Origin: Gammaproteobacteria bacterium | GTDB taxonomy: Bacteria; Pseudomonadota; Gammaproteobacteria; Xanthomonadales; SZUA-36 | DNA length: 37,344 nt | Reading direction: 5' to 3' | NCBI GenBank assembly: GCA_021772935.1 | Contig: JAJFLA010000022.1 | Coordinates: 1 to 37,344 of the forward strand | Shown here: positions 18,574 to 26,803 of the stretch, one piece after another | Position numbering within the stretch: position 1 is the first letter of the stretch | How the letters are laid out: each line of letters begins with the position of its first letter | Position numbers and translations under genes: made by a program | Notes under the pieces: model-generated | The model's input: only the letters and a program-made list of their open reading frames with translations | What the model was told of the DNA's origin: nothing | Database searches by the model: none

Positions 18574-18690
18574 TTATACCACCCGGTTGATAGGCTGACC
18601 ATGCTGAAACGCCAGGATAACTTCGGCTAACTGATCAAGACAGGCCTGGCGGGCTGCTTTGCTGGCCCAGGCGTTATGCGGCGTGATGCT
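18574..18690 (-). pseudogene. 3' remnant of a D-2-hydroxyacid dehydrogenase
   Basis: Reading leftward from 18690, 38 codons encode SITPHNAWASKAARQACLDQ and then LAEVILAFQHGQPINRVV before a TAA at 18574-18576. TPHxAW(A/G)S followed by AR...DQLAENI...G.P.NRV is the C-terminal end of glycerate dehydrogenase/HprA-like enzymes and includes the catalytic histidine. The 5' nine-tenths of the gene are absent: the fragment begins exactly where the exbD stop codon sits. It is therefore a truncated relic. Confidence 0.8.
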
Positions 18691-19093
18691 ATTTCCTGGT
18701 TGTGGCGACACTGACGCTACCTACTCCAACCGCTTCCGCCGCATCGAGTATGGTAACAAGCGCATCGGTTTCCGCATCCGGATGAGCAGCAATAATCAAT
18801 GGTGAATCGGGTTTCTCGGCTTTTTCCCGCTCAAGATTTGCCTGCACGGCCTTGCGCTCCAGCATGCGCCCCTTCATCATTATATTTCCATTAGCATCAA
18901 TCTTGACCACGATTGGCCCTTTGTTTTTCTTGACTTCTTTGGGCGGTGAATTGGAAGGTCTGGACACTTCAAGACCCTTTTCCTTAACAAAGGAAGTGGT
19001 CACGATAAAGAAGATAAGCATAATGAAGACGATGTCTAGCATGGGTGTAATGTTGATCTCGGCTTCGTCATTTGCCCGATTTTTTCTACGCAT
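18689..19093 (-). CDS. exbD: ExbD/TolR-family energy-transducing protein (orphan)
   Basis: 134 residues. A basic N-terminus precedes the single helix MLDIVFIMLIFFIVTTSF with the essential proton-pathway Asp20, then a periplasmic domain ending GVGSVSVATTRK, as in complete ExbD proteins. GAGG precedes the ATG. ExbD works with ExbB and TonB to drive outer-membrane uptake, but neither partner gene is in the window: a dehydrogenase relic follows directly and a transposon end lies 58 nt upstream. It may be left over from a broken ton cluster, or may use partners encoded elsewhere. Confidence 0.9.
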   Translation of the reverse strand: MRRKNRANDEAEINITPMLDIVFIMLIFFIVTTSFVKEKGLEVSRPSNSPPKEVKKNKGPIVVKIDANGNIMMKGRMLERKAVQANLEREKAEKPDSPLIIAAHPDAETDALVTILDAAEAVGVGSVSVATTRK

Positions 19094-19151: not shown

Positions 19152-19156
19152 ACTCA
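19152..19156. repeat. Left target-site duplication of the Tn7-like element
   Basis: ACTCA stands directly outside the left inverted repeat and is repeated directly outside the right one (24946-24950). Five bases is the duplication length made by Tn7-family transposition. Confidence 0.8.
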
Positions 19157-19303
19157 TGTGGTCGAGTAATAAAGTTTCATACTAGAATCCCCTGAAGGCT
19201 AGGTTTTTCGGTCATGAAAGCTGGTGGCTGAGAAATACAGTATCATACTGAATGAGCATTACTAATGAAAAATCACGATATAATTAGGAATAGAGTTTCA
19301 CAC
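19157..19303 (+). repeat. Left transposon end with three TnsB-like sites
   Basis: Site 1 is GAGTAATAAAGTTTCATAC at 19164-19182. Site 2 is GAGAAATACAGTATCATAC at 19230-19248 (3 differences). Site 3 is TAGGAATAGAGTTTCACAC at 19285-19303 (4 differences). All point the same way. Three dispersed sites within about 150 bp is the known layout of the Tn7 left end. Confidence 0.75.
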
Positions 19304-19410
19304 CGACCCTCAACTGCCAGGTATTCACCATGTCCTAGTCTTGGCTTGGTTTACCCCGTTTCTGCGTACACTTCGGAGTTGTTATGTGACTTCAGAAATT
19401 GTCAAACTAT

Positions 19411-19443
19411 GTGCGCCGCCCACTCTGCTGGGCGGCACTTTTT
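19411..19443 (+). terminator. Intrinsic terminator pointing into the element
   Basis: GCCGCCCA at 19415-19422 pairs with TGGGCGGC at 19429-19436 around CTCTGC, followed by ACTTTTT. The U run lies on the right, so it would stop rightward transcription coming from the left end, antisense to the protease. It lies 31 nt past the protease stop and may also trim that leftward transcript. I see no gene in 19304-19473. Confidence 0.6.
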
Positions 19444-19473
19444 ACCAGAAACCAATTCACACTTAACTCACTG

Positions 19474-22391
19474 TTAATCAGGTATAAACATGATATCCAC
19501 CTGTCCAAGCATATCTTGCAAGTGAGTGTTCGTGGGCATCATAAGAGGATTATAGGTGAATAAAACAGTTGTGCCGAGAATCGTGATGTCCCCGAATGTC
19601 TGCGGAAAATAATTCAACGGACTAAATTGCTTATGTGCCCCTCCAAAATTAGTAAAGTAAACTGAAACCGTGTATGTTTCACCAGCCACCACTTGTATTG
19701 GAGGCACTGAAACGTAAGCCCAATTGTTATTGGAAGCAACAGGTATTTGTCTCAATAATTGACCTGTTGTATTGTTAAATAGAGTAATATTATAGGTACC
19801 GTTAAAATAACCTCCTAGCTGCGTAACAGACCCATTGACTAGTGGTGAAAAATGGTAGCCTGTTGCGAAGGTTAACCACCATTGATTTATAAGGGTCATA
19901 GCGCCAGCGTTACTTCCCCAGGGCGTTTGAGCGCCACCACCACCGCCACACGAGCCATTCATGGGGTCCGATACTGGCGAACTTGTGAGTGGGTATTCGG
20001 CACCGTCAGAAAGCCCATCGCAATCAGAATCCATCGTCAAGCGATCCGTGCCCAATATATGCTCCATGCCATCAATGACGCCATCTGAGTCTGAATCCAG
20101 GTTGGGGTATGCATAGCCAAGTTTTTTCAGATTGTTGGTATAACTGATGGATTGCATAAGGGTTATTTTGGATTCTGGGAATATTGCATGATCATCTCTC
20201 GAAGGGTGGTAGGCACGATAGACTTTTACTGCACCGGCCGGTATGCAAGATGGCTCTGGCGAGCACACTGTATAGATATATCCTTCTATCCCATCCATCT
20301 CATATCCTTCTGACCTGAAACTTGAGCTTCCTGAGATTTCAGTATCGAGTGCCAGTAACCAATCGGCATTGTTCGGACTTGGGTTTCCATTCTTAGGCCC
20401 AACAAATCGAAGGCGATAAAGCGGAGTTACTGGTCCTCCGTTTGCAGGCTGTCGATGGGTTGTCAGAATAAACAGGTCTGCTCGTGGGGCAGCTGGTGTT
20501 GGGTTTAATGGTGACTCTGGAAAAGTGTATCCATTAACCACAGCTTCAGAAGAATATGGTGTGTAGCCCCAAACCATATTCAAATTGTACGCCATTGCAA
20601 CTTGGGGCTTTGTTGTATGTACAATATCGTCAGCAACACTACTTTCCATTGAAAAAAGTGGGGTAACTCGATTCAAGACTTGAACCCCAGCGGATTTACC
20701 AAGCATTTCTTTCACGGCAACGTCGGCTCTTGGTGTACCCCACCCCAGTGTATTGCTATAGCTTGATTGGCCGGTTGAGTTCTTCATGACCTCTATGACC
20801 TCATTGACAGTCGCTAAAGGATTGGTTGATCTGACCAATCCTGCGACACCAGAAATAAAAGGTGCGGACATCGATGTACCCGTACAGTATCCGTAGTCAT
20901 CTTCTACACCGTCACTCAGGTCATCACAGCCCACATGAGGAACATATTTCTTGCCCTTATACATAGTGGAATAGACATCCCTTGCGGGCGCAGAAAACGT
21001 TGGGCCATTGGTTGAGTTGGTCCCAAAACTTGAACCGTGTTCTGGTCCCCATGCTGTATCTTCTGTCCAAAACAATGCCCCATTGATTCCATTTCTAGTC
21101 CCAGAAACTCCGATGACGTGGGGATCTGCTGCAGGAAAATGCAATTCATCATCAGAGTAGTTACCCGCAGAAGCTACCCAAAAAACGTCCCTATCTTGAG
21201 CATACTGAATTAACAAGCATCGAGGATCACTTAAATTTGAAGCGCAAAATCCACTGTTGTTATCAGCATCAGGAGCCTTTACTCCAAGTATTTCAGGCTC
21301 GCCACCGCTCATATTCAAAATTTGAACACCTGTATCAATTTGAAACCCCACACCGGTATAAAAGCTCGCAAAGCTGTTCCAGGCCTTGGACTCAATTGGA
21401 CTGATCTCATCTGGATGAAACAAAGGAGGGTTGGCGTTGATACAGGTAACTTTTGGATAAATAAATTGAGACATCGATATCGCACAATGTCTGCAAACTC
21501 CGCTGACATTGGTACCGTTAGTTGCGTTCGCGGCTATAATCCCTGTCACATGTGTGCCATGACCAGCAATATCTCGTTCAACAGTGCCATTGTTATTGGT
21601 ATCACAGCCTGAGTTGTCACCAGGAACGATTGGCAGATGATATTCATCGACACTCCCCATAACGACGCTCGAAAAATAAGGATTCGCGTACGAAGGGTTA
21701 GATACTGCCGCAGCGTTAGAACCTATACTAAACGAGAGCGCGGGGTGAAAATTTCCACCTTTCCAAGTACTGCCGGAATAATCAACGAAGTCGATATGGT
21801 TTGGATTCAGCCCTTGGTCGTTAACACCGATATAGGCATGCCCATGCTGAAATCCTGACGTTCCATTTATTCCGTGCGCTGCACCCGCTCTTACTGCATT
21901 AAACCCCCAATATCTGTCTTCTTGCACTAGCTCCCCAGCCCTGCTGTCCAGATGATTCGATAGATTATAGCTCGAGTCATCCACACCAAAATAGGCAACA
22001 TCGGTATCTGTTTTTAGCTCTTCAAAATTTCTTGTAAATTCACACCATCAGGATAGCTTATGATCAAATACCGTCCGAGTTTAGAGCGAGCGTCCTCTTC
22101 AATGTTATTATTTTTCTTACCTTTGGTTAAAGGTAAGAGAGTCGAAACAGAAACTGGTAAGTGCTTCTTAAGAGTACCGAGTGGCATACCCAAAATATCT
22201 TTTGCAATTATCTTTTCTATAGTCTTTTGAGTCTTTTTTGCGCTTGCGTCATCTTCCAGGAGGACATAAAAGCTATTTCGCCATAATTTTGGGTCATTTG
22301 ATGGTTGTTTGAATTTTTGCTGTTGGGCCGCCAAAACTGTTGAGAATAAAACAGAAACGACCAGAAAGGTAATAATATTCATTATTTTCAT
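19474..22391 (-). CDS. Secreted subtilisin-family (S8) protease, split by a frameshift
   Basis: Two frames make one preproprotease. The 5' part (22391 to 22014) encodes a signal peptide (ITFLVVSVLFSTVLAAQ) and a propeptide ending GRYLIISYPDGVNLQEIL. The 3' part has no start of its own; read upstream it begins EELKTDTDVAYFGVDD, the usual propeptide continuation. Adding one T to the run at 22024-22027 joins them. Catalytic residues, numbered from the codon at 21984, are Asp56 (GVNDQG), His142 (GHGTHVTG), Asn275 (SAGN) and Ser371 (GTSMSAP). Then come calcium-binding thrombospondin-type repeats (DSDSDGVIDG, DSDCDGLSDG), a poly-Gly linker and a C-terminal beta domain resembling DUF4082. It follows the 442-residue exported protein gene by 4 nt. 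Confidence 0.85.
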
Positions 22392-22395
22392 TGGT

Positions 22396-23724
22396 TTACT
22401 CCTTCATTGTGGACAGTTCAAATGCATTGCCATAATTGGCTTGAATTAATTGGTCGTTATCATTGGTGAGTTGGCCATTCTTGAATTCTTGAAGTACAAC
22501 TCCAATAACTGGGTTTCCGGTATATGCTCTGGAATTGCTGGTAATTGAGTGACCGAACTGGCTACCCAAGTAGACCTCAAACTGCCCACTTTCGGGGATT
22601 ATCGGGAACTCCGGTGATGGAAAAAAGGAAACATGTTCTTCCGATAGTATGTTTGAAGTAACAGTTGTATTGTGGTTGGAGACCGCGTTATTGAACGATA
22701 GAATACGCATGCTAGGTAAATTTGAATCTTGATATGGAGCCTCACATTTTGATAGCACCGGCGTGATACAGATAGTATTTTGCCGCTGACCAAATCCGGT
22801 TCGATCGTAAACAAATAAGCCTATGAAAGTTATACCTTGATCGAAATTATTTTCGTCAAAATAAAACTTCTGTAACGGAAAGGTTAAAATAACTTCTGTA
22901 CTACCTCCAATGTTTGGCTCGATAGAGAACTCACCACTAAGCCTACGTGACAACAAGGTCGCAGCTACCGCGTCTACAGGCCGCTCCCAGGTATCTTCAA
23001 TGCACTCTCCGTTGATGCAAAGAACACTGATTGTTGCATTTGCCTCAGTGCCTGCATCGTGTGCCGAGGTCAAATTGGGTAAAAGCTCGCCTGGGGCAGT
23101 ATGCTGTTGAATATCACTAAATGCTGATAAGGCCGTGGCCACGAATGAATACATGGTTCCATGTCCAACGTTGATTAACGAAGCGGACCCCCTCACACCA
23201 CCCACTGGCGGCCCCAGACCAAAGGAAGGGTCATCCAGCCACTGTCCATTTTCAGCCCACAGTGCATTGAGCGCCTCACAGTCGGGTTCCTCGATCAACC
23301 TTAAGATGTCCAGATCGATGATGGTTCCCATTTCGATAACTTCCAGATAACCAGAGGTTGCTGGTACAACGACCGAGCCGGAGCCATCATTGAGGTCTGG
23401 AGAAATGCAACTGGTATCTGGCAGGCTCAGGTGCGTTTCGCCATTAACCTGCCCTAATCCAGCCACCCAACTGCCGTTATCTTCAAGATACAAATTAAAT
23501 GAAAGCACAGCTTCGCCCTGACGGTCTCGAAAGTGTACTTTTAGCGCCTTCGAACCGGAACTTTGTGAGGAAATCGTGATGGCAGTCGTATTACCACCTA
23601 ATGTGCCAAAGTATGGAAAAATCAGTACCTGACCTCGTTTATCCGAGCTCAACATCACCGCCGATATCGAGCTGGATACCATTATGGCCAGGCTGGCTAA
23701 AACTACAGTTCTCGTTAAGTTCAT
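22396..23724 (-). CDS. Large exported protein of unknown function
   Basis: 442 residues with a signal peptide (NLTRTVVLASLAIMVSSSISA). The rest is beta-rich with few charged runs; it begins RGQVLIFPYFGTLGGNTTAI followed by KALKVHFRDRQGEAVLSFNL, a pattern I associate with uncharacterised surface or exported gammaproteobacterial proteins. Eight or so cysteines in the mature part occur in close pairs (for example CINGEC), suggesting disulfides. It is the first gene of the transposon cargo, 4 nt before the protease gene, so it may be a substrate, partner or surface anchor of the protease; that is inference. Confidence 0.75.
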   Translation of the reverse strand: MNLTRTVVLASLAIMVSSSISAVMLSSDKRGQVLIFPYFGTLGGNTTAITISSQSSGSKALKVHFRDRQGEAVLSFNLYLEDNGSWVAGLGQVNGETHLSLPDTSCISPDLNDGSGSVVVPATSGYLEVIEMGTIIDLDILRLIEEPDCEALNALWAENGQWLDDPSFGLGPPVGGVRGSASLINVGHGTMYSFVATALSAFSDIQQHTAPGELLPNLTSAHDAGTEANATISVLCINGECIEDTWERPVDAVAATLLSRRLSGEFSIEPNIGGSTEVILTFPLQKFYFDENNFDQGITFIGLFVYDRTGFGQRQNTICITPVLSKCEAPYQDSNLPSMRILSFNNAVSNHNTTVTSNILSEEHVSFFPSPEFPIIPESGQFEVYLGSQFGHSITSNSRAYTGNPVIGVVLQEFKNGQLTNDNDQLIQANYGNAFELSTMKE

Positions 23725-24919
23725 GGTTAATATTCCTTAGAAAGTCACGGTGTTTGCGATATAACTAGAACTAACATTGTGATGCTTACAGCAGTACTTT
23801 CTCACCTTAATAAATACCTCCGGCAAAATTGGGGGCGCGAATTTGTGAGCCGCTGAAAACGGCTTGTGATTGGGAAGTACGAGCAACGAGCTTGAGAATA
23901 CAAACGGATGTGATACTGCAACTGGGAGAATTGCAGTAGTTGGAGCATAAGAAAGAACCAAAATCTGTAGAATCAAAAAGCATCACAAGTCCTCTATTCA
24001 AGCCGGTGTCTGAGGTACACCAGAACATCCACCGTTTACCAACGGTCCATCTTGAAAAACTCATTTCCCTTCTGTTCAACAGAAGTGCGACACTTTTTAT
24101 GCTTTGATAATTTTTTGAGCGTTCTGGGGACGCCTGTAATTTTGAAACTATTGTTACTCCGATTTCTTTTATTTGTCAATGGCATAACTATATAATTATA
24201 TTAATAAACTACGAGTTACAAGCACTATAGTGGTGCACGTAATCACTGAAGCTCTATCTTTTGAAAGGAGTTTTCCTGGAATCTAGTTTAGGTGAGAAGA
24301 TTATTTACTTGAACCCACGCAATAAAGTTGAAACTTGCATATTTAGGAAGATCAAACTACTAATCACTATAGTGCTGAACATCAGCACCGAAAATTGGTG
24401 GATTTATTTTGGTTTTTTTTGATTGATCTCTTTTTTTGGCCTTTCCTGGCGCAGTCACACTAATTCGCGCTTCGGCACAGCGCCTAATTTCAACATTCAC
24501 TTCCACATGCTGTTTCTGGATGGTGCTTACATTGACAGTAAGCACAGAACTTCACGGTTTGCTGGCGAACAGAAAATATAGCGGGAATGGTGATGGAATC
24601 ACCGTAACCGTTATCAATTTCCAGGAGGTATTACCATCTATGAGTGCGGGAGAAACAGTCCGGTTCGTATTCTCTGTTGTACATTCGCGCTGCCTTTTGT
24701 AATTCACACAGCCGATCGTAAATTTGAGTGTTGCGCTGATCGTAGATCGTGAGACCTATAGTCACAATCATACCAAGTAGAGTTAGAGCAAATGTATTTG
24801 TCGGATTGAGATCTTCAACTGTCGGCCACATCAAATGATTGCAAACTGAGCGGGGAAAACTTAGTTATGACCTATGGGAACCTAAAGCGGACGGTATCAG
24901 TATGAAACTATATTACTTG
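23725..24919. other. Gene-poor right arm of the element, AT-rich
   Basis: About 1.2 kb with no convincing complete gene. It holds the promoter region of the cargo operon, AT-rich stretches around 24160-24210, two copies of the palindrome CACTATAGTG (24223-24232 and 24365-24374, each extended to AGCACTATAGTG or its inverse), and scattered short frames. In autonomous Tn7 elements the tns genes would start here; nothing recognisable as tnsA is present. Confidence 0.5.
24631..24831 (-). pseudogene. Short frame with a membrane segment, possible gene fragment
   Basis: From the ATG at 24831, 66 codons include NPTNTFALTLLGMIVTIGLT, a good membrane helix, followed by IYDQRNTQIYDRLCELQKAA, which looks like genuine protein. 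It has no clear Shine-Dalgarno and ends abruptly in a non-natural tail. I do not recognise the family. It may be a scrap of former transposon cargo. Confidence 0.3.
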
Positions 24920-24945
24920 GTATGAAACTTTATTACTCTCCCACA
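24900..24945 (-). repeat. Right transposon end with two adjacent TnsB-like sites
   Basis: On the minus strand, read inward from 24945: TGTGGGA, then GAGTAATAAAGTTTCATAC (24938-24920, identical to left site 1), then AAGTAATATAGTTTCATAC (24918-24900). The sites repeat every 20 bp. Closely packed sites mark the Tn7 right end; Tn7 itself has four, and I find only two clear ones. Confidence 0.75.
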
Positions 24946-24950
24946 ACTCA
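24946..24950. repeat. Right target-site duplication
   Basis: ACTCA, identical to 19152-19156, lies directly outside the right end and 21-25 nt beyond the glmS stop codon. Confidence 0.8.
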
Positions 24951-24970: not shown

Positions 24971-26803
24971 TCATTCCACAGTCACGGACTTGGCAAGGTT
25001 ACGGGGTTGGTCGACATCCGTTCCACGCTGTACAGCCACGTGATAGGCCAATAATTGCAGCGGGATTGTCATCACAACCGGAGCCAATAGTGGCCCACCC
25101 GTATCCAGACCGATAACCCGACCATGCCGCTGCTGAAAACTTGAAAGTACCTCAGAGTCCGCGATCACATATAGCTCTCCGCCTCTCGCATTGACCTCTT
25201 CTATATTGCTGATCAATTTTTCCAACAATGTATTGTTCGGTGCCACTGCAAATACTGGCATCTCAGCATCCACCAGGGCCAACGGACCGTGCTTCAACTC
25301 ACCCGCAGCATAGGCTTCGGCGTGGATGTAGGAGATTTCTTTGAGCTTGAGCGCGCCCTCCATTGCAATCGGATAATGACTGCCTCTGCCCAGGAAAAGC
25401 GCATGGTTTTTGTCCTTGAACGCTGCCGACAGTGCTTCAAACTCACCATCAAGTCTGAGTGCTTCATTTAATAATTCTGGTAGATGATTTAAATCACCCA
25501 CATATTTGGCGTAAATAGCTTCATCAAGACCATTCAGGCGGGCCAGTTCCAGCATCAGCAGTTGTAATGCAACCAGCTGAGTAGTAAATGCCTTGGTTGA
25601 TGCTACACCGATCTCGGGACCCGCCCGGGTCATCAACACCAACTCGGCCTCACGCACTATAGAACTCTCTGCAACATTACAAATCGCCAGTGTGGTTATA
25701 TAGCCAGCTTGTTTTGCATGTTTCAAAGCAGCTAGCGTATCTGCCGTTTCACCAGATTGTGATATGGCGACAAACAAGGTGTTTTCCGGTACAACCGGCC
25801 TGCGGTAGCGGTACTCACTAGCGATTTCAGCCTGGCATGGAATGCCAGCTAATTGCTCGATTTGGTACCTGGCAACCAGGCCCGCATGGTAACTGGTGCC
25901 GCAAGCTACGATGTGAATTTGCCTGACCTGTTTCAGCAGATCATCCGCACCGACACCAAAAATATTCGGCAATACCGTGTTGGCGCTGAGTCGTCCCTCA
26001 AGGGTTTCAGCCACCGCTTGCGGTTGCTCGAATATCTCTTTCAGCATGTAGTGTGGATAGTCCCCTCGTTGTACTGCATCGGCCCTGGTGTCAACCTGCT
26101 TGACCGGCCTTCGTACCGGTTGATCGTTCATATCAACAACCGCGTAGCTTTGTGCATCCAGCCTGACCACGTCACCTTCCTGCAAAAAGACAAACCGATC
26201 AGTCTCGCCCAATAGTGGATAAATATCAGATGCCAGGAAATGTTCCCCATTGCCAACACCCAGAACCAAAGGGCTGCCTTTACGCGCACCAACAACGACA
26301 CCAGCCTCAGCGGCACTGACCACGGCAATGGCAAATGCACCACGCAAACGCTCAACGGCTTGACGCACAGCAGCGAACAAATCCAACCCGGACTCCATCA
26401 ACCAGGCGATCAAATGAACCATAACTTCGGTATCTGTATCAGAGCTGAAGCAGCTGCCAGACTGCTCAAGCTCCTGTCGCAATTCTTCGTGATTTTCGAT
26501 AATGCCGTTGTGAACTAACGCAAGTTGGTCACTCGATGTGTGCGGATGAGCATTTTCTGTGTTGGGTGCACCATGGGTGGCCCAGCGCGTATGAGAGATA
26601 CCACAGTGGCCATCAATGGGTGAAGATTGCAGCAAGGCTTCCAGGTCTTTAACCTTGCCCGCTGTGCGCCGTCGTGCCAGGCAACCATCCTGTTGCAATG
26701 CGATACCGGCTGAATCGTACCCTCGATATTCAAGCGTATGCAACCCTGCAATCAGGATGTCCCGGATGTTTCGCCCAGCACAGGCAGCAACAATTCCACA
26801 CAT
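24971..26803 (-). CDS. glmS: Glutamine--fructose-6-phosphate aminotransferase (isomerizing)
   Basis: 610 residues. Cys2 of MCGIVAAC is the glutaminase nucleophile; HTRWATHG, the two SIS domains (CGTSYHAG, SQSGETADT; LGRGSHYPIA) and the C-terminal NLAKSVTVE are all present. It makes glucosamine-6-phosphate for cell wall and lipopolysaccharide synthesis. AGGAAGGTG precedes the ATG, 16 nt after glmU. The conserved 3' end is the recognition site of TnsD in Tn7-type elements, and such an element sits immediately downstream. Any native terminator has been displaced by the insertion. Confidence 0.98.
   Translation of the reverse strand: MCGIVAACAGRNIRDILIAGLHTLEYRGYDSAGIALQQDGCLARRRTAGKVKDLEALLQSSPIDGHCGISHTRWATHGAPNTENAHPHTSSDQLALVHNGIIENHEELRQELEQSGSCFSSDTDTEVMVHLIAWLMESGLDLFAAVRQAVERLRGAFAIAVVSAAEAGVVVGARKGSPLVLGVGNGEHFLASDIYPLLGETDRFVFLQEGDVVRLDAQSYAVVDMNDQPVRRPVKQVDTRADAVQRGDYPHYMLKEIFEQPQAVAETLEGRLSANTVLPNIFGVGADDLLKQVRQIHIVACGTSYHAGLVARYQIEQLAGIPCQAEIASEYRYRRPVVPENTLFVAISQSGETADTLAALKHAKQAGYITTLAICNVAESSIVREAELVLMTRAGPEIGVASTKAFTTQLVALQLLMLELARLNGLDEAIYAKYVGDLNHLPELLNEALRLDGEFEALSAAFKDKNHALFLGRGSHYPIAMEGALKLKEISYIHAEAYAAGELKHGPLALVDAEMPVFAVAPNNTLLEKLISNIEEVNARGGELYVIADSEVLSSFQQRHGRVIGLDTGGPLLAPVVMTIPLQLLAYHVAVQRGTDVDQPRNLAKSVTVE

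Follow-up and report, generated by a model that had tools for sequence, protein, structure and literature searches.

A Tn7-like element without transposase genes at the glmS attachment site of a gammaproteobacterium, probably a natural mini-Tn7

Introduction

The ends, insertion site, orientation, and target-site duplication of glmS-targeting Tn7 transposons are products of TnsABC acting with TnsD. In laboratory mini-Tn7, the transposon ends enclose foreign cargo, the transposase is supplied in trans, and insertion occurs at attTn7. The present study concerns a contig of 37,344 nucleotides from a gammaproteobacterium of the SZUA-36 lineage (JAJFLA010000022.1, assembly GCA_021772935.1; the whole stretch is called the window), in which an insertion with Tn7-type ends and no detectable tnsABC genes lies between glmS and exbD. 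This element is probably a non-autonomous member of a glmS-targeting Tn7-like family, that is, a natural mini-Tn7 with secreted-protein genes that would have been mobilised in trans.

The 3' end of glmS is recognised by TnsD, according to the accessible part of PMC11406308. Elements that keep their ends, lack a transposase, and are mobilised in trans are known from other transposon groups, as the accessible parts of the respective papers describe for miniature inverted-repeat transposable elements (MITEs; PMC10969869) and Tn3-derived inverted-repeat miniature elements (TIMEs; PMC4133298). In the portion of PMC10969869 that was available, Tn7 is mentioned twice, for attTn7 targeting and in a reference, and neither mention is on non-autonomous Tn7. 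A large survey of Tn7-like elements (PMC10293859, accessible part) starts from a TnsC tree, and therefore elements that have ends and lack tns genes would be invisible to a survey of this type; that part deals with elements for which recruitment of target selectors in trans is possible, and not with transposase-less ones. Words beginning with 'autonomous' were not found in the accessible text of PMC10293859 or PMC11406308. A keyword search of the literature, with most subscription journals outside it, returned no description of natural non-autonomous Tn7 elements, and novelty is claimed tentatively.

Results

Ends and target site

The inverted ends of the element match at 24 of 26 positions (92% complementary across 26 nt), and ACTCA is duplicated perfectly on both flanks (Table 1). 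The stop codon of glmS occupies 24971-24973 on the minus strand; ACTCA lies 21-25 nt past this stop and the element ends 25 nt past it. The initial annotation had reported the repeats, the duplication, and the right end beside glmS, and re-measurement reproduced all of them. Both ends also bear arrays of predicted TnsB-like sites, dispersed at the left (19165, 19231, and 19286) and abutting at the right (24900 and 24920, a pitch of 20), which that annotation had not mentioned. The end sequence presumably resembles the prototype Tn7 ends.

Table 1. Features of the window element and its flanks; TnsB-like sites are predicted.
Feature	Position	Strand	Description
exbD	18689..19093	-	neighbour of glmS at the empty site in relatives
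Target-site duplication, left copy	19152..19156		5 bp, ACTCA; sequence, empty-site alignment
Element	19157-24945		5,789 bp; transposon-type insertion between glmS and exbD
Left terminal inverted repeat	19157..19182	+	TGTGGTC..., with TnsB-like site L1 (19165-19182)
TnsB-like site L2	19231..19248	+	3 mismatches; 66 nt past L1; same columns in autonomous relatives
TnsB-like site L3	19286..19303	+	3 mismatches; 55 nt past L2; alignment with autonomous relatives
S8 subtilase open reading frame (ORF)	19474..21984	-	836 aa; Peptidase_S8, E 9.7e-30; DUF4082 match below cut-off
125-aa ORF	22014..22391	-	signal-peptide-like start (by eye)
442-aa protein	22396..23724	-	signal-peptide-like start (by eye); no Pfam, NCBIfam or PADLOC match
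Stretch without convincing gene	23725..24898		about 1.2 kb; 90-aa ORF, no Pfam match
TnsB-like site R2	24900..24917	-	
Right terminal inverted repeat	24920..24945	-	TGTGGGAG..., with TnsB-like site R1; toward glmS
Target-site duplication, right copy	24946..24950		ACTCA; sequence, empty-site alignment
glmS	24971..26803	-	attTn7 target gene

Separated inverted pairs of 26 nt with at least 24 matches were sought by a script seeded on an exact 8-nt match, which pairs without such a seed would escape; one was found in the window and none in 20 first-order Markov randomisations of it, and a chance repeat was rejected on these grounds. The genome itself is a draft of 3.96 Mb in 56 contigs (98.02% complete, 2.29% contamination). 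The initial annotation had proposed a search for other copies of a 19-bp site; the end motif, allowed up to 3 mismatches, has two copies in this genome, at the two ends of the window element, and the element is single-copy. The 18-nt inner site is present five times within the element and has one 3-mismatch match elsewhere in the genome, against 4 control matches.

Empty site in related genomes

A GlmS search gave a match in 41/41 genomes (in G008, G009, and G013 only short fragments or paralogue-level matches), and 30 glmS loci, L009-L038, were inspected, the window's own among them. ExbD is present in the flanks of 13 of the 30, and it is close to glmS except in L019 (about 0.95 kb off). A script tried on 12 loci measured gaps of 278, 100, 87, 148, 103, and 77 nt between the glmS stop and exbD in six, while the other six gave no exbD start under its rule; the corresponding gap in the window is 5,877 nt. 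When joined with one copy of ACTCA, the window flanks align across the join to L010, L012, L014, and L015, all from genomes of the same genus and with a short stretch between glmS and exbD. At the join, the window reads TGAGT-AAGCTGT and the four congeners read TACGT, TAAGT, or TCAGT followed by AAGCTG. Therefore, the boundaries fall at 19157 and 24945, exactly where the initial annotation had expected an empty-site comparison to place them. L016 and L028 were also in the alignment and are too diverged at this point to inform.

Two of the genomes have additional glmS sequences. G027 carries a C-terminal glmS fragment (C1:3807644-3808216) about 2.9 kb from glmS, and G035 has two full glmS copies; the fragment and the second copy are possibly attachment-site duplicates.

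End family and autonomous relatives

A scan with the motif TGTNGGNGAGTAATAAAGTNNCATAC returned 66 stretches in genome contigs and 10 in viral contigs. The end motif is present in 6/369 genomes class-wide, the window's genome included, and among 101 relatives only in this genome and in G042, a member of the same family. GlmS lies directly outside the end in 25 of 83 motif loci (L058-L140), or 24 distinct ones, as L091 and L128 are apparently one record. The spacing from the glmS stop to the end in these 25 is 25 nt in 15, 24 nt in eight, and 23 nt in one (25 nt in the window); that of L068 was unparsed by the script and is similar by eye. Similarity to TnsA was found by tblastn in 16 of the 83 loci, in L067 over 38 residues only. 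In clustering, 12 of the 25 glmS-adjacent loci are without a TnsA ORF, L067 among them, and several of these 12 stretches (L088, L103, L095, and L091/L128) contain little of the element.

Complete autonomous elements with the same end motif were recovered at glmS in L150, L154-L157, L159, and L160. All seven, 11.7-15.7 kb long, have a perfect 5-bp duplication, encode TnsA, TnsB, and TnsC, and have GlmS beside one end. L150 (14,456 bp) and L160 (14,455 bp) have an identical duplication and possibly stem from a single insertion event. L142-L143 together contain an eighth autonomous element, about 24 kb long, with TnsABC inside and AAATT on each flank. The genomes of the first seven all have TniQ. 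The Pfam matches of L154 (Oceanisphaera psychrotolerans) comprise TnsA, TnsC, TniQ/TnsD, and TnsE, and its TnsB gives a Mu-transpos_C match slightly under the cut-off.

The left-end layout of the window element is that of these relatives, with three sites each; the spacings are 66/55 (window), 66/54 (L156), and 67/55 (L154). Among the blastn matches listed, those between the window and other members extend over no more than 97 nt at the left end and roughly the first 50 nt at the right end. The window element has further traits of the glmS-targeting Tn7-like class, namely a 5-bp duplication, represented by a single copy when the empty site is aligned, TGT-ending termini, and a right end that faces glmS at a distance within the range of 23-25 nt past the gene. 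Judged by sequence comparison, the end motif is that of a glmS-targeting Tn7-like family and the Tn7 assignment holds, because autonomous relatives with the same ends encode TnsABC and share the distance to glmS and the left layout. The combination first proposed, of Tn7-family ends, glmS targeting, and no transposase, is thus borne out by the family-wide and empty-site comparisons.

Five of the glmS-adjacent loci (L083, L068, L089, L075, and L096) were extended as L141-L146; one is autonomous (L142-L143), and for none of the five was a complete cargo-only element demonstrated. An apparent cargo-only element of 7.9 kb at glmS in L141 was not counted since its flanks are without a matching duplication, and L148 was set aside likewise.

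Back-to-back Tn7-family ends, 4-5 bp apart, were seen at L149:7542-7548, L150:14920-14925, L079:2807-2812, L100:6971-6977, and L062:609-614, one end being a weaker match in L079, L100, and L062. This arrangement suggests successive insertions at one site. Nine copies of the end motif (at up to 3 mismatches) occur in G500 (Pseudovibrio axinellae; L111/L117), which has TnsA similarity in L111 and no TniQ match.

Transposase-less members of the family

Transposase-less copies recur in the family. Besides the window element, eight complete ones were identified, each flanked by a perfect 5-bp duplication and devoid of TnsABC similarity. Shewanella contributes three, L063 (2,426 bp, with a PDC-S26/PDDEXK_4 protein), L087 (3,676 bp, with an Mrr-type protein), and L210, from the same genome as L087 (2,887 bp, with two proteins for which no Pfam or PADLOC match was found). 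An Aeromonas element (L071; 1,195 bp) has cargo with only borderline matches, and an Alteromonas element (L147:730-2167; 1,438 bp) carries a D12 methylase. A D12 DNA methylase is also the cargo of a 1,201-bp element with ATCGC on both flanks in a phage contig (L138:8754-9954; IMG/VR IMGVR_UViG_3300024947_000004); it adjoins a phage portal gene and has six TnsB-like sites at its right end, arranged as a doubled array. Two members have no ATG ORF of 40 aa. One is the 202-bp element of G042 (L084), which has window-type ends and ATTGC on both flanks, and the other is a 336-bp Pseudovibrio element (L116:299-634) with a perfect TTATG duplication. A second copy of the latter, 92% identical over its length, lies on another contig of the same isolate (L077:2283-2619), where the flanks do not match each other.

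L063, L087, L147, and L210 have 153-200 nt of the left end in common at 77-82% identity and no nucleotide match between their middles. From this pattern, it appears as if cargo had been swapped between kept ends. None of the eight elements lies beside glmS in the stretches inspected, and the window element does. TniQ was searched in five genomes of transposase-less members; none was found in G467, G474, G495, or G042, and one in G485. Two pairs were kept out of the main evidence, L131 (one duplication mismatch) and a second pair in L147 (224 bp, weak ends). The proportion of non-autonomous members is not estimable from this set, in which the fetched loci were mostly at most 8 kb, favouring short pairs, and only chosen loci were extended.

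Search for tns genes and a helper

A tblastn search of the element with seven TnsA, seven TnsB, and five TnsC queries gave a best E value of 0.81 and no tns remnant. An autonomous element would encode TnsA, TnsB, TnsC, and TniQ/TnsD, and the window element does not; it is therefore filed as a non-autonomous derivative and not as a Tn7 transposon. The initial annotation had also called for a search of the remaining genome for tnsABCD, and none was found for TnsA, TnsB, or TniQ/TnsD (TnsC and TnsE were not searched genome-wide). TnsA_N was detected in 12/101 genomes, with no match in the window's genome and nine congeners, and within the family in G042 only. TnsB, queried with that of L108, was found in 5/61 genomes and in none of the 37 of the window's family, its own included. 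TniQ was not found in the window's genome in a search that was positive in 9/16 genomes.

G042 belongs to another genus of the family (g8). At 25 nt past its glmS stop, it has a related but different end, TGTCGGAGAACAATGAAG..., with tnsA just inside; the contig stops some 1.6 kb beyond the TnsA_N match. Searches of this genome, which is 85% complete, found neither TnsB nor TniQ. The locus is possibly part of a partner element in another genus. A CRISPR-associated transposon was considered for the window element and rejected, as no cas-type Pfam match was found in the four ORFs scanned and no CRISPR array was among the repeats listed, in agreement with what had been stated at the outset.

Cargo of the window element

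Relatives of all three cargo ORFs are collinear on a single G047 contig, those of the 442-aa protein and the subtilase being incomplete, and G050 has relatives of the 125-aa ORF and the subtilase; both genomes are of genus g8. In each genome, the 125-aa part and the subtilase start share one reading frame. The subtilase gene of the window thus appears to be broken at 21984-22014, between the pro-region and the catalytic part, unless this is a draft error. The subtilase of G050 shows a frame change near residue 152. The nine congeners have weak generic subtilase matches in three genomes and none in six. As relatives occur in genus g8 while congeners have weak matches or none, the subtilase may have arrived from a related lineage. 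The 442-aa family as such is not foreign; relatives occur in 47/61 genomes, another is encoded in the window's own genome on C52, and the closest outside the window, at 47%, is in G047. Genus g8 loci L185-L189 were examined for a Tn7-bearing source of the cargo, and no end-site cluster was found beside the cargo (L188 has one lone 3-mismatch site; L185, L186, and L189 are cut by contig ends). In many TnsA-bearing relatives, tnsA sits about 118 nt inside the right end, where the window has its gene-poor stretch.

Discussion

A proposed history of the window element can be described as follows. An autonomous member of the family, present in the same cell, would have supplied TnsB and TnsA to bind and cut the ends of the element and TnsD to bind the 3' end of glmS, with TnsC as the bridge. 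The element would then have been inserted with its right end facing glmS, 25 nt downstream of that gene, and the helper may later have been lost or may never have been resident in the lineage. As the element has no tns genes, the Tns proteins would have come from another element, unless its own genes were deleted afterwards. The initial annotation had proposed a minimal, non-autonomous or decayed Tn7-family element moved in trans, in which movement in trans and decay are two alternatives. Mobilisation in trans is favoured because complete non-coding and cargo-only relatives recur with clean duplications; it is not proven, and both alternatives remain.

Several observations weigh against mobilisation in trans. 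TnsB was found in none of the 37 family genomes searched, so that a present-day helper is not in evidence, the element is single-copy in its own genome, and that genome is only a draft. Two clear sites are seen at the right end, against three at a pitch of 20 in L154 and L156, and two sites are likewise found in TnsA-bearing L111 and in the short elements L063, L084, L087, and L116. Just inside the right-end sites, ACCGTC resembles, by eye, the tnsA leader of several TnsA-bearing members, which suggests an ancestor made by internal deletion, before or after the insertion at this site. Candidatus Methylobacter oryzae (L149) has at glmS a 4,184-bp element flanked on each side by CTTGC, in which tnsA is matched over its full length and the TnsB match ends at residue 462 of 694; this element abuts a second, tns-bearing one. 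As a deletion intermediate, the 4,184-bp element shows that internal loss occurs in the family, and thus supports a deletion origin for window-like elements.

The last two observations, together with the broken subtilase frame as a sign of ageing, are what an arrival as an autonomous Tn7-like transposon, with later loss of the tns genes by internal deletion, would explain. This course is the less likely one, however, as no tnsABC remnant is left in the element, both ends and the duplication are intact, and the family includes complete small members without tns genes, one of them in two copies. That the element is of another transposon kind, or a genomic island that is Tn7-like only at its tips, is very improbable; it contains no transposase to prove its kind, but its end sequence, site arrays, glmS spacing, orientation, and duplication length are those of Tns-encoding relatives. 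Similarly, a draft with 2.29% contamination might have the element joined to glmS by misassembly or contamination, yet both boundaries are at the bases expected for a Tn7 insertion, the duplication is perfect, and the flanks match congeneric genomes, which makes an artefact hardly credible. A non-autonomous origin with mobilisation in trans is therefore the preferred explanation.

There is perhaps an even chance that the transposase-less members form a widespread satellite class, in which natural mini-Tn7 elements of 0.2 to about 6 kb have ends recognised by a helper TnsB, exchange cargo (often a single nuclease or methylase gene, in the window element genes for secreted proteins), and spread among chromosomes, the glmS site, and phages via helpers in other cells or lineages. 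If such dependent elements do form a class, the movement of cargo by Tn7-like systems has been undercounted, attTn7 can be occupied by parasites of Tn7, and the natural end pairs offer a direct test of the recognition of ends by TnsB.

Overall, the window element shares with the glmS-targeting TnsABCDE transposons the TGT...ACA ends, the arrays of sites of about 20 nt, the asymmetry of the ends, the 5-bp duplication, and the insertion immediately past glmS with the right end facing the gene; it differs from them in being without tnsABC, with TnsA, TnsB, and TniQ undetected in its genome. Unlike laboratory mini-Tn7, it is natural, its cargo consists of bacterial secreted-protein genes, and its mobility is inferred. 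In contrast to MITEs and TIMEs, as far as the accessible parts of their descriptions go, it has Tn7-type ends with site-specific targeting.

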